Source of the DNA: Granulosicoccus sp.
Lineage (GTDB): Bacteria > Pseudomonadota > Gammaproteobacteria > Granulosicoccales > Granulosicoccaceae
Length of the DNA: 36,523 nucleotides
Direction: 5' to 3'
NCBI GenBank assembly: GCA_023300375.1
Contig: JALZWO010000137.1
Span: 1-36,523, forward strand
Within the stretch, counting starts at the first letter, position 1. The number at the start of each line of letters is the position of its first letter. Shown here piece by piece: positions 5,987 through 11,043 of this stretch. The notes beneath the pieces are model-generated. The model saw only the letters and a program-made list of their open reading frames with translations, had not been told where the DNA came from and ran no database searches. Both the position numbers and the translations under genes were made by a program.

Positions 5987-6361
<375 letters not shown>

Positions 6362-6369
6362 TTTCTAAT

Positions 6370-7176
6370 TTACGCGGCGCGGCTGTTGTCATCGTCATAG
6401 GCTGTTGGATCTCGCCTTTTCGATCTCAATTCACCGGCCGCCGCTTGTGCGTCGGCATCCTCCTTCTTGCGCGCATCTGCTTCGTTGAGTTCTTGAAACA
6501 GACTTTCAAGTTCTTTAAAGCGCGCTGGCAAGATGTAGAGATACAAAACTAAGGTCTCCAGCAGTTGCATAAGCCCATCAGCTGTGGGCTTGTCTGTGCT
6601 GTGATGTTTTTTGAACAATGCGTGCAAGTCGCCTTGTTTAGCGGTGGACGCTGAAAGCTGGGCCAAAGGCTCGTTGTGATTTATGGTGCTTATTGAGTCC
6701 CTAATCATGTTCGATAGCGTACCGCGGCTACTTCCCGTAGGTAGAAAATCTTCAAATATGGTTTCTATTGCGGTCCTTATAAGGACATTGCTAGCCATGA
6801 GATTCCCTGAGAAAAAAATGTCTTGGGCGGTTTTGCAATATTTCAGAACATCTTCCGGAATGTTGTCCTCTTGTTCGTTCAGTTGCATATGTTCCACTGG
6901 CGATGGCAGCATGAAAATGCTGGGGTCACCCTCGCCGTCCTGACGGGCATGGGCAACCATATCGACAACCCAGAAATGGACAGTTGTGTCACAGGCCGAG
7001 CAATCAGCTGAGCAGGAAGATGTGTCTCGATTTGGGTCGTACTGGCGTCGCTTTGTGTTGAAAGTCACATGTAAGGAGCAGCCTGGGCAAACGGCAGCTA
7101 TCGATACGGGATGCGACAGTTTGTTGCCACTGGAGTAAGCCCATTTCTTAATGCTGTTGTTTGGTATCTGTTTCAA
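6370..7176 (-). CDS. DUF4145-like protein with N-terminal zinc ribbon, function unknown
   Basis: A 268-residue hypothetical protein with no signal peptide or membrane segment, so probably cytoplasmic. The N-terminus holds a likely zinc ribbon, C30-P-G-C33 paired with C59-S-A-C62 (an extra Cys at 55). The centre has a helical segment, KYCKTAQDIFFSGNLMASN then VLIRTAIETIFEDFLP (about residues 112-146), which resembles the DUF4145 domain (clustered amphipathic helices with a conserved R-x-A-[IL]-E). The C-terminus (about 215-268) is a charged, Ala/Arg/Asp-rich tail with likely coiled coil. The TTG start is supported by GGAG 5 nt upstream. DUF4145 domains occur alone or attached to nucleases and restriction-type proteins, but no such partner is nearby. 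It stands alone between rnpB (convergent) and mraZ (divergent). Confidence 0.65.
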   Translation of the reverse strand: MKQIPNNSIKKWAYSSGNKLSHPVSIAAVCPGCSLHVTFNTKRRQYDPNRDTSSCSADCSACDTTVHFWVVDMVAHARQDGEGDPSIFMLPSPVEHMQLNEQEDNIPEDVLKYCKTAQDIFFSGNLMASNVLIRTAIETIFEDFLPTGSSRGTLSNMIRDSISTINHNEPLAQLSASTAKQGDLHALFKKHHSTDKPTADGLMQLLETLVLYLYILPARFKELESLFQELNEADARKKEDADAQAAAGELRSKRRDPTAYDDDNSRAA

Positions 7177-7571
7177 TCTGACTCCAACACACTGGGTTGA
7201 CCACGTATAGCAGTAGGTAACGGCAGAATGTTGTCGTACGTAAGCTAGTTAGTGTAAGCCGGTATCAGGAGACGCTCGACAGATTGCGGTGATGTGGCGG
7301 TGGTATTGATCGATTGCAAGTGGGCGTTGAGCAATGCCAAAAAACTCAAAAAATGAATGCGCGAATCAACTGCAGACGCAGACGTGTAAAAAAAAGTTGC
7401 CAATATATTGCATTGTTTGCGAAATCCGTCACGTTTTATTAATGAGATAGCTCATTTACTTAACATCGAATTTACTAAACCTTGCTAAGTCATTGATTAT
7501 TTGGAGGTCATTCAGAGCCTTATGAACGACGCTTTTTCTTGAAAAAACAGGTGCTTAGACGTGCATAACCG
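7177..7571. other. long AT-rich intergenic region upstream of the dcw promoter
   Basis: About 395 bp without a convincing gene. It holds A and T tracts (7387-7395 region and 7351-7357), a 10-bp palindrome CAATATATTG at 7401-7410 in CAATATATTGCA, and an inverted repeat AATGAG-atag-CTCATT at 7441-7456. The leader of the DUF4145-like gene (minus strand) is at its left edge. These could be regulator or nucleoid-protein sites, but I recognise none specifically. Confidence 0.5.
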
Positions 7572-7600
7572 TTGACCACATCATTTAAGGGTCGTATAGT
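7572..7600 (+). promoter_or_regulatory. sigma70-type promoter of the mraZ/dcw operon
   Basis: TTGACC at 7572-7577 and TATAGT at 7595-7600 are separated by exactly 17 bp, close to consensus at both boxes. Transcription would begin near 7606-7608, about 40 nt before the mraZ start. The MraZ boxes begin on the -10 element. Confidence 0.85.
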
Positions 7601-7634
7601 GGGGCTACGTGCAATTCTGTGTCAAATCGTGGAG
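7599..7634 (+). promoter_or_regulatory. MraZ operator: four GTG boxes at exact 10-bp spacing
   Basis: GTG occurs at 7599, 7609, 7619 and 7629, each exactly 10 bp apart (boxes GTGGGG, GTGCAA, GTGTCA, GTGGAG). MraZ is a ring-shaped AbrB-fold DNA-binding protein known to bind G-rich direct repeats spaced one helical turn apart upstream of its own gene. Here the array overlaps the -10 box and start site of the promoter, and the last box overlaps the GGAGG ribosome-binding sequence, which fits autorepression. Confidence 0.8.
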
Positions 7635-7647
7635 GTCGTAGCAAGAA

Positions 7648-8106
7648 ATGTGGTTTCGAGGCCTCACAAATTTGAGTGTAGATGCGAAAGGTCGCGTTGC
7701 TGTGCCCAAAGATCATAGAGATACTCTTGAAGCCAGTGGAGTCAAAGAATTAGCGGTTACGGCGTCCCCCTCCGGTTGTCTGAATGTGTATTCAAAAGAG
7801 AATTGGTTGGAAATGGAAAAAAAGCTGATGTCGGTGCCCAATGCTGGGTCAAAAGCCGTCCAGCAGCTTCAGCACCTCTACATGGGTTACTGCGAAATTG
7901 TACAACTGGATGGTACCGGAAGACTGAGTCTCACAGCGCCGCAGCGCAAAAAAGCTGGTATTGATCGCAAGGCAATGTGGGTTGGGCAGGGTGACAAATT
8001 TGAAATCTGGGATGAGGTTACCTGGGAAGAAAAATTTGGCAAGCTCGATAGCGAAGAAATTGATTTGTCTGATCTGCCTCCTGAACTAAAAGCGCTCTCG
8101 TTCTGA
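7648..8106 (+). CDS. mraZ: transcriptional regulator MraZ
   Basis: First gene of the dcw cluster; a DNA-binding regulator that in E. coli represses its own operon. The 152-residue product has two SpoVT/AbrB-type half-domains, each with the diagnostic D-x-x-G-R turn: LSVDAKGRVAVPKDHRD (about residues 9-25) and VQLDGTGRLSLTAPQRKKAG (about 89-108). It is cytoplasmic and DNA-associated. The ATG at 7648 lies 12 nt after GGAGG, a slightly long spacing. An array of four GTG boxes in the promoter region is the likely binding site. The stop overlaps the rsmH start (TGATG). Confidence 0.97.
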   Translation: MWFRGLTNLSVDAKGRVAVPKDHRDTLEASGVKELAVTASPSGCLNVYSKENWLEMEKKLMSVPNAGSKAVQQLQHLYMGYCEIVQLDGTGRLSLTAPQRKKAGIDRKAMWVGQGDKFEIWDEVTWEEKFGKLDSEEIDLSDLPPELKALSF

Positions 8107-9056
8107 TGGATACCTCTAGCATCAGTGAGTTGCAGTCAGGCCATATTTCGGTGCTATTGCACGAGGCAGTCGAAGCGTTGACACTGAGCGATGAAGGTCG
8201 CTTTGTAGATGCCACCTACGGCCGAGGCGGCCACAGTCAGTATCTGCTGAGTCAATTAGCCCAAGAGGGTAGCTTGTTAGCAATAGATAGAGACCCAGAG
8301 GCTGTCGCTGACGCCACTGCACGCTTTGCTGATGAGCCCAGATTTACCATGTGCAAAGCAAATTTTGCTGAATTGGAAATGGTGCTGAGTGAGCAAGGCT
8401 GGTTTGGTGAGGTTGATGGTGTGCTTCTTGATCTTGGTGTGTCTTCGCCGCAATTAGACGTCGCAGAGCGCGGCTTTGGTTTTTCGCGCGATGGCGATCT
8501 CGACATGAGAATGGACCCTCAGAACGGGCAAAGTGCAGCGCAGTGGTTATCGCAAGTTGAAGCGCAAGAGCTTGCTGTTGTACTCAAAGAGTATGGTGAC
8601 GAGCGATATGCCAAGCGTATTGCTGCTGCGATTGTGTCTGCTCGCGACGAAATGCCGATAACCCGTACCTTACAACTGGCTGAGATCATAAAGGTTGCTC
8701 ATCCTCGATGGGAACGCCATCATCACCCTGCGACCCGAAGCTTTCAGGCAATACGTATTCAAGTAAATGGTGAATTGGATGCTATTTCTACTGTGCTTGC
8801 AGCCTGTGCCAAGGTGCTTAAGATTGGTGGCAGAGTTGCAGTAATAAGTTTTCACTCCTTAGAAGATCGTATTGCCAAGCGCACATTTCGGCAGCCGATA
8901 CCTGATCCAAGGATTCCACGGCATCTGCCTCAGCCGGCGTCCATGGCACATCCATGGCGTGTTGTAGGCAAGCCAATAAAAGCAGGAAGTGCCGAGCTTG
9001 ACTCTAATCCTCGCGCAAGAAGTGCTGTTTTGCGTGTGGCGGAGAGAGTGCTATGA
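8106..9056 (+). CDS. rsmH: 16S rRNA (cytosine(1402)-N(4))-methyltransferase
   Basis: RsmH (formerly MraW) adds the N4-methyl group to C1402 of 16S rRNA, the same nucleotide whose ribose is methylated by RsmI, encoded about 3 kb upstream. The 316-residue protein shows the family signatures HISVLLHEAVEAL, the SAM-binding VDATYGRGGHSQYLL, GVLLDLGVSSPQLDVAERGF, DGDLDMRMDP and ISFHSLEDRIAKRTFR. It overlaps mraZ by 1 nt and ftsL by 4 nt. Confidence 0.98.
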   Translation: MDTSSISELQSGHISVLLHEAVEALTLSDEGRFVDATYGRGGHSQYLLSQLAQEGSLLAIDRDPEAVADATARFADEPRFTMCKANFAELEMVLSEQGWFGEVDGVLLDLGVSSPQLDVAERGFGFSRDGDLDMRMDPQNGQSAAQWLSQVEAQELAVVLKEYGDERYAKRIAAAIVSARDEMPITRTLQLAEIIKVAHPRWERHHHPATRSFQAIRIQVNGELDAISTVLAACAKVLKIGGRVAVISFHSLEDRIAKRTFRQPIPDPRIPRHLPQPASMAHPWRVVGKPIKAGSAELDSNPRARSAVLRVAERVL

Positions 9057-9322
9057 GTCGCACTATCATGGCGTCATTGGTTCTTGCGGCTTTGTGCTTC
9101 TGTTCAGCACTGGCAGTGGTGTTTTGTAAGCACCTCACGCGTGAGGCATATGCAGAGATCAGTGAAAATCGTACGCTCATTAACGAGCTGGATGTTCAGT
9201 GGAGTCAGTTGCAAATTGAAGAGAGCACATTTTCTTCATATGGTCGTATTGAGCGCCAGGCGCGTGAACGTTTGAATATGAATTTTCCGGGCCTTGAAGG
9301 CTCTGTGATGATTGTGCGCTAA
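9053..9322 (+). CDS. ftsL: cell division protein FtsL (very short cytoplasmic tail)
   Basis: Bitopic inner-membrane protein of the FtsQLB divisome subcomplex, which activates FtsWI. The 89 residues comprise a 4-6 residue cytoplasmic N-terminus, one membrane helix at about residues 5-25 (with Cys residues in AALCFCSALAVVFCKH), and a periplasmic coiled coil with the family pattern LDVQWSQLQIEESTFSSYGRIERQARERLNM. The ATG at 9053 has GGAG 8 nt upstream and overlaps the rsmH stop. The frame upstream reaches a stop at 9005 with no usable start codon, so the short tail is real. E. coli FtsL is 121 residues with a tail of over 30. Confidence 0.93.
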   Translation: MSRTIMASLVLAALCFCSALAVVFCKHLTREAYAEISENRTLINELDVQWSQLQIEESTFSSYGRIERQARERLNMNFPGLEGSVMIVR

Positions 9323-9324
9323 CC

Positions 9325-11043
9325 ATGGTTACTTCAAAAACAAATCAATGGTCTTGGCGTCGAAGTGTCGTTACCGTTGGCTTTTGTACATTAGCGGTGG
9401 TGCTCTTGGTGCGTGCCGTTCAATTGCAAGTTGTCCAAAGCGAGTTTTATCAGGAGCAAGGTGCAAACCGTCACTTGCGAACGGTAGAAATTCCAGCGCA
9501 TCGTGGTGATGTATTTGATCGCAATGGCGACCCTCTTGCGATAAGCACGCCAATCGATTCGTTTTTTGGAGTTCCATCTGATCTTGCGAAAGAGCCTCAG
9601 AAGTTACAAGAAGCTGCGCAATTGCTGGATATTGATGCAAACAGATTGCAAGCGCGCGTCAATAGAGCGGTGAGTCAAAAACGAGGGTTTATGTATGTAA
9701 AACGACACGTGTTGCCCGATGTGGTTGCGCGTGTAAAGGCATTAAAGCTCAAGGGGCTTGATGTTCAGCGAGAGTATCGCCGTTATTACCCAAGTAGCGC
9801 CGCTGCATCACAAATTGTAGGTTTTACCAATATAGATGATCAAGGCCAGGAAGGCCTAGAGATGGCATACGACACTTGGTTGTCAGGTGATGCCGGTGCG
9901 CGTCGTCTCGTTCAAGATCGAACTGGTCGTGAAATTGCCGGTATGGATGTTCTCGCACCAGCGGTGGCTGGCAAGAGTCTGGCCTTGAGCATTGATAGCA
10001 AGCTTCAGTACTTCGCCGATAAAGCATTACGCGAAGCTATCGACACACATGATGCCGAGAGTGGTTCAGTTGTTGTGCTTGATGTTCAGACAGGGGAAGT
10101 GATGGGTATGGTTAATTATCCGAGTTATAACCCTAACAATATCAGCGACAGAGTGGGTGGACAACAACGCAATCGTGCCGTGACAGATGTATTCGAGCCA
10201 GGTTCAACGATGAAGCCATTCACCATTGCAGCCGCGCTCGAGTCGGGTGATTTCAAGCCAGAGAGCATTGTTCATACATCTCCCGGTAGATACCAGATTG
10301 GTAAGTATGAAATCAGTGATTTCAAAGATTATGGTTGGTTAGACCTCAAAGGCATTGTGACCAAATCAAGCAATGTAGGGATCAGCAAAATTGCGGGTCA
10401 ATTAGAGCCTGAACAAATGTGGTCGGTGTTTGATACGTTCGGGTTTGGTCATCCTACGGGTAGCGAATTTCCAGGTGAAGTGGCTGGATATTTTAATCAC
10501 TCAACGCTATGGCATCGCTCCGAACAAGCGAGTTTGTCTTTTGGATACAGTCTTTCTGTCACGGCATTGCAGCTTGTTCGCGCCTACGCTGCGCTTGCAA
10601 ATGAGGGCATCATGCCAGCGGTGTCTTTTATCAAGGATGAAAGCGATGAGGCTGGAAAGCGAGTCATTGATCGTTACATTGCTGCAGACATAAAAATCAT
10701 GCTTGAATCTGCGGTGACTAACGGCTCTGGCAAACTTGCAAAAGTGCCAGGCTATACGGTCGCTGGCAAAACAGGTACTGCACATCGTTCACAATCGGGC
10801 GGATACGCTGAAGATCGTTATGCCTCTTTGTTTGCAGGTTTCGCTCCGGTCGATAATCCGCGTTTGGCAGCTGTTGTCGTTGTGCATGATCCAAAGGCGG
10901 GTGAGCATTTTGGTGGTGCAGTAGCAGCGCCTGTATTTGCAGAAGTTATGTCTCATGCATTGCGACTGATGGGCGTTGAGCCAGATGATGTTGATGGCGA
11001 GAGAGCTCAGGTGCATATGAAAGCACCTGGAGAGCGATCGTGA
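9325..11043 (+). CDS. ftsI: septal peptidoglycan transpeptidase FtsI (PBP3)
   Basis: Class B penicillin-binding protein that cross-links septal peptidoglycan together with the glycosyltransferase FtsW. The 572-residue protein has a short cytoplasmic N-terminus, one membrane anchor at about 15-34, the non-penicillin-binding domain with RGDVFDRNGDPLAIST, and the transpeptidase domain with all three catalytic motifs: S294-T-M-K297, S348-S-N350 and K482-T-G484. It starts 2 nt after the ftsL stop, has no strong ribosome-binding sequence of its own, and so probably depends on coupling to ftsL. The stop overlaps the murE GTG start. Length and motifs look intact. Confidence 0.98.
   Translation: MVTSKTNQWSWRRSVVTVGFCTLAVVLLVRAVQLQVVQSEFYQEQGANRHLRTVEIPAHRGDVFDRNGDPLAISTPIDSFFGVPSDLAKEPQKLQEAAQLLDIDANRLQARVNRAVSQKRGFMYVKRHVLPDVVARVKALKLKGLDVQREYRRYYPSSAAASQIVGFTNIDDQGQEGLEMAYDTWLSGDAGARRLVQDRTGREIAGMDVLAPAVAGKSLALSIDSKLQYFADKALREAIDTHDAESGSVVVLDVQTGEVMGMVNYPSYNPNNISDRVGGQQRNRAVTDVFEPGSTMKPFTIAAALESGDFKPESIVHTSPGRYQIGKYEISDFKDYGWLDLKGIVTKSSNVGISKIAGQLEPEQMWSVFDTFGFGHPTGSEFPGEVAGYFNHSTLWHRSEQASLSFGYSLSVTALQLVRAYAALANEGIMPAVSFIKDESDEAGKRVIDRYIAADIKIMLESAVTNGSGKLAKVPGYTVAGKTGTAHRSQSGGYAEDRYASLFAGFAPVDNPRLAAVVVVHDPKAGEHFGGAVAAPVFAEVMSHALRLMGVEPDDVDGERAQVHMKAPGERS

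Follow-up and report, generated by a model that had tools for sequence, protein, structure and literature searches.

A putative MraZ operator with its first box inside the −10 element of the dcw promoter in Granulosicoccus and other Gammaproteobacteria

In the Granulosicoccus DNA analysed here (a stretch of 36,523 nucleotides, hereafter the window), an array of four GTG boxes lies directly upstream of mraZ, at the head of a dcw cluster that continues with rsmH, ftsL and an ftsI-like gene. Probably, this array is the autoregulatory operator of the dcw operon, through which MraZ would occlude the promoter and repress both its own gene and the dcw genes. As far as the DNA itself can tell, the lasting finding is that the −10 element incorporates box 1. 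We also propose a broader reading in two joined parts, which we hold only tentatively and would not yet favor over its negation: across much of the Gammaproteobacteria, the −10 element of the dcw promoter would itself be an MraZ box, spelled TATAGTG instead of TATAAT and read by both sigma and MraZ, and in the genus of the window the operator would have been re-weighted along with residues K21 and H23 of MraZ, suggesting a changed recognition. The features are collected in Table 1.

Table 1. Features of the mraZ promoter region and of the neighboring genes in the window.
Feature	Position	Strand	Basis or conservation
rnpB, bacterial class A RNase P RNA gene	5987-6365		Rfam RF00010, 312 bits
268-aa reading frame between rnpB and the mraZ promoter	6370-7176	−	no Pfam or NCBIfam match
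−35 element TTGACC	7572-7577	+	promoter match in sequence; at least 5/6 of TTGACA at a 17-bp spacer in 23/27 genus genomes
−10 element TATAGT, final two bases common with box 1	7595-7600	+	TATAGTG in 26/27 genus genomes
Putative MraZ box 1, GTGGG, fused to the −10	7599-7603	+	box-1 slot in genus: GTG 26/27, GTGG 23/27
Predicted transcription start (A), 7 nt past the last −10 base	7607	+	inferred from sequence
Putative MraZ box 2, GTGCA (GTG without GG)	7609-7613	+	box-2 slot in genus: GTG 25/27, GTGG 5/27
Putative MraZ box 3, GTGTC (GTG without GG)	7619-7623	+	box-3 slot in genus: GTG 27/27, GTGG 15/27
Putative MraZ box 4, GTGGA	7629-7633	+	box-4 slot in genus: GTGG 27/27
GGAGG, possible Shine-Dalgarno site, 12 nt 5' of the mraZ ATG (7648)	7631-7635	+	not kept in genus
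mraZ (152 aa, PF02381), intact, heads the dcw cluster	7648-8106	+	fold match to MraZ structures
MraZ residues K21 and H23	7708-7716
rsmH/mraW methyltransferase	8106-9056	+	reading frame and profile search
ftsL	9053-9322	+	reading frame and profile search
ftsI-like penicillin-binding protein (transpeptidase)	9325-11043	+	reading frame and profile search

A preliminary description of this DNA had set out a TTGACC-17-TATAGT promoter followed by GTG at 7599, 7609, 7619 and 7629, with the first box on the −10 element and the fourth on GGAGG, and the sequence agrees in each respect. The two hexamers and their 17-bp spacer give 10 of 12 consensus matches in a promoter search, the four consecutive boxes keep an exact 10-bp period, the −10 element and box 1 have the G and T at 7599-7600 in common, and box 4 overlaps GGAGG from 7631 onwards. 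The boxes of E. coli MraZ are said to have been given as TGGGN by Eraso in 2014. This form is absent from boxes 2 and 3, which rules out the E. coli sub-form but not an operator with a GTG core. The protein that would read the boxes is encoded immediately behind them. The mraZ product matches PF02381 at 81.1 bits (gathering cut-off 23) and falls just under the cut-off of the NCBIfam equivalog TIGR00242 (97.1 bits against 98.35), and its D-x-K-G-R motif is kept in 98-100% of 147 aligned rows. A structure model, weak in itself (mean pLDDT 59.9) and consulted for nothing beyond the fold match and the titles of the structure entries, retrieved five MraZ entries at Z 8.8-9.7, the next row being at 4.0.

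We then compared the site across the genus. TATAGTG followed by three phased GTG stands at mraZ in all 27 genus genomes, which share ancestry and so are not 27 independent cases; 24 of these sites are exact, and three (G003, G005 and G014) have one changed base (the loci are L001-L028 without L019). The only genome lacking TATAGTG has TATAGTC, and directly upstream of mraZ at least two of three boxes are phased with a −10-like hexamer in all 27. The preliminary description had taken the array for an MraZ operator and had proposed to see whether relatives lose the 10-bp GTG pattern; they keep it at mraZ throughout the genus, and this conservation, as a sequence argument, bears the operator out. 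In one genus genome (G001), the exact motif occurs once more, in a tandem repeat located away from mraZ. When two mismatches were allowed, extra matches appeared elsewhere in the genus genomes and many appeared in the reversed control, and only the matches at mraZ recurred across genomes.

Beyond the genus, we read the mraZ leaders of a class sample made of one genome per family. Ninety-three of the 106 class genomes with mraZ other than those of the genus were read, the 13 omitted being the weakest matches, and two others brought the sample to 95. Duplicate loci (L086, L087, L092, L094 and L115) were omitted before counting, as was L167, a second MraZ-like locus in G103, for which the upstream sequence examined holds no array. 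Within 150 nt, and tolerating one empty slot, 79 of the 95 leaders hold three or more phased GTG, against 0.25 expected from dinucleotide shuffles, and the remaining 16 have fewer than three. TATAGTG with a GTG ten bases on is found in 54 of the 95, against 0.04 expected from base shuffles. The scan reached 150-160 nt upstream, so that G089, with its operator at a distance of 249 nt, was scored as a miss. In two loci (L190 and L174), 249 and 115 nt separate the end of the operator from the estimated start of mraZ, indicating long leaders in some species. An MraZ match is absent from 17 of 124 class genomes, reflecting either loss of mraZ or incomplete assemblies.

The fused operator of the TATA type is not universal: it is absent in 40 of the 95 class genomes, in six of eight family members outside the genus, in E. 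coli, and in all eight usable named loci outside the genus (ten were named, of which L031 is G008, already in the genus count, and L037 has only 40 nt upstream). By eye, four named loci (L032, L033, L034 and L040) show a four-box array starting with GATAGTG, and those of the Lysobacterales and Alcanivoracaceae have three GTG in phase and lack a fused box. We also scanned 299 genomes of the phylum starting from the motif and not from mraZ. The exact 16-base motif was found in 24 genomes (12 of 181 genera), whereas the reversed control gave 0/299. By our own count from the table of the scan, 23 of the 114 genomes in the class (window included) and one of the 185 outside it carry the motif. In 23 of the 24 (window included), a mraZ start follows box 4 after 19-249 nt; in the lone genome outside the class, the 1,637 bases examined contain no reading frame for MraZ. 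Altogether, the site resembles a switch of a known kind, arranged as in many related bacteria.

How closely the first box and the −10 element are merged can be seen from positions that our selection left free. Fused operators were chosen by a [CT]ATANT hexamer phased with boxes 2-4, with neither position 5 of the −10 element nor the next base being specified, and 55 of the 95 class leaders qualified. Position 5 is G in all 27 genus operators and in 54 of the 55 class operators, and the following base is G in 26/27 and 53/55, respectively. The consensus −10 element, TATAAT, has an A at position 5. The simplest reading of this pattern is that the same base pairs serve sigma and MraZ. A genome-wide −10 comparison was uninformative, TTGACN18TATANT giving three sites in the window's own genome and nine for the reversed control. 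Among the literature matches listed, an MraZ box inside a −10 element appears in no title or abstract opening, which is no proof of absence.

The preliminary description had regarded the fourth box as unusual, a view that does not hold. According to a passage of PMC7761207 on Burkholderia cenocepacia and to the title of PDB entry 9sz7 ('CryoEM structure of MraZ in complex with 4 box promoter from Mycoplasma genitalium'), four-box MraZ operators are already documented, and an exact GTG fills the fourth slot in 37 of the 55 fused operators of the class sample. By that title, the M. genitalium operator (9sz7 and 9r4j, compared by entry titles) likewise has four MraZ-bound boxes, but it differs from that of the window if the Mollicute core site is (AAAGTGKN3)3, as quoted in a passage of PMC5282649. 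The B. cenocepacia operator shares with that of the window the 10-bp period, with four 7-nt repeats and 3-nt spacers, and the position over the transcription start; the promoter fragment with these repeats is shifted by MraZ in gel shifts. However, the same passage of PMC7761207 describes the repeats as lying downstream of the −10 element, with no bases shared. In E. coli K-12 (L085), the boxes also recur every 10 bp upstream of mraZ, in the form GTGGG and downstream of the −10 element. In contrast to the window, E. coli has three exact boxes and a degenerate fourth (GGG at 321), and its likely −10 element, TAAACT, has no box inside. The E. coli MG1655 boxes (291-324 of L085) fit a G-quadruplex pattern, unlike those of the window, and the box and quadruplex readings overlap there.

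The closest counterparts are the class fused operators, in which, as in the window, the −10 element runs into GTG, with further GTG at +10, +20 and often +30. Their spacer is most often 18 bp, against 17 bp in the genus, and the strengths of their boxes are distributed differently. GTGG occupies slots 1 to 4 in 9, 55, 54 and 36 of the 55 class operators, to be set against the genus counts of Table 1, where it is missing from box 2 in 22 and from box 3 in 12 of the 27 genomes. The class thus places a weaker box, mostly GTGT, on the −10 element and GTGG downstream in boxes 2-4, while the genus keeps GTGG mainly at the end boxes, 1 and 4. The protein of the genus differs as well. A lysine follows the conserved proline of the MraZ D-x-K-G-R...P motif (K21 in the window) in 27/27 genus genomes and in only 3/95 of the class, and a histidine stands two residues past it (H23) in 22/27 against 8/95. 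The class mostly has T, A or S at the first of these positions and Y at the second, the tyrosine being found in 79/95. It is possible that K21 and H23 mark a change of recognition in the MraZ of this genus.

The mechanism that we propose follows from this geometry. An MraZ oligomer would read the four GTG boxes, spaced by about one helical turn and therefore all on one face of the DNA. Since box 1 lies in the −10 element, the predicted start comes between it and box 2, and the first transcribed bases would be taken up by boxes 2-4, binding of MraZ and of RNA polymerase would be mutually exclusive: bound MraZ would cover the DNA from the −10 element past the start site into the beginning of the transcribed region, and would keep the polymerase out. 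Such promoter occlusion would result in autorepression of mraZ and repression of the downstream dcw genes, and the tight autorepression suggested in the preliminary description is plausible.

The sign of this control deserves discussion, since MraZ could bind the boxes and activate the operon, as has been reported for some other species. In Neisseria elongata, a passage of PMC9395523 reports that the first dcw genes fall upon mraZ deletion and rise upon its overexpression; therefore, the sign of MraZ control varies. Nevertheless, a box in the −10 element and three more in the start region would make a poor position for an activator, and the available passages of PMC8475190 and PMC7761207 state a repressor role for E. 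coli MraZ, so that we regard activation in the window as unlikely. Much less likely still is a control at the RNA level, which the preliminary description had entertained and in which MraZ or a leader structure would mask the ribosome site beside box 4. Its appeal lies in the overlap of box 4 with GGAGG, in the probable transcription of boxes 2-4, and in two of 27 genus leaders (L006 and L024) that fold better than their shuffles (z about −2). However, the Shine-Dalgarno sequence is not kept. A match of at least five bases within 22 nt of the start exists in one of the 27 genus genomes, that of the window, and one of at least four bases in 4/27; the closest relative has GGGGG in place of GGAGG. 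To judge by these leaders, the overlap with the ribosome site is peculiar to the window's species within the genus. Neither is there an overall excess of structure (z +1.25 for the window leader; mean z +0.56 over the 27 genus leaders, range −2.06 to +2.17), and the distance from the end of box 4 to the mraZ start varies from 16 to 39 nt across the genus. Conservation, folding and spacing thus leave RNA-level control of mraZ unsupported.

Two further explanations would dispense with an operator altogether. The G-rich repeats might form a G-quadruplex and not be protein boxes, as proposed for the mraZ promoter of Staphylococcus aureus, where one is reported in a passage of PMC11796246; the boxes of E. 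coli are compatible with such a pattern too. However, four runs of at least three G (loops of 1-9, last 150 nt) occur in 0/27 genus and 7/95 class leaders, which largely excludes, at the level of sequence, a quadruplex at the genus mraZ promoter and leaves this explanation with a negligible probability. The periodicity might also be a chance one beside an ordinary promoter. Indeed, the bare pattern is not rare. In the 4.58-Mb genome of the window we found one exact four-box match, at mraZ, and 23 one-mismatch matches, one of which is the mraZ operator shifted by one box; by arithmetic from these 23, about 0.6 exact four-GTG arrays are expected per genome by chance. As the 23 do not exceed the chance arithmetic and only the mraZ site is exact, the scan of this genome gives no sign of a wider MraZ regulon. 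Its reversed control was uninformative, the pattern being identical when read backwards, and a scan with two mismatches allowed was too loose to discriminate (one found, 1.02 expected). Three-box arrays number two in the window, overlapping and both at the operator, against a shuffle mean of 0.44, two being reached in 7 of 100 shuffles, and sigma-70-like sites near the operator are not above chance (two found, mean of 2.4 in shuffles). Because the bare GTG pattern is not rare genome-wide, the significance of the array rests on its position and conservation. Locally, when the bases of 7500-7647 were shuffled 200,000 times, the exact four-fold array with its 10-bp period arose once, and its recurrence at mraZ, in all the genus genomes and in 23 of the 24 exact pattern-first matches, refutes chance, for which we see practically no room.

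Under the preferred reading, autorepression by promoter occlusion, the position of the boxes relative to the −10 element provides a rule that predicts the sign of MraZ control and can be tested, by which fused operators should be repressors of the occlusion type. Furthermore, the shift in box strength that is specific to this genus may be regarded as a natural experiment on how the MraZ oligomer weighs its four contacts.
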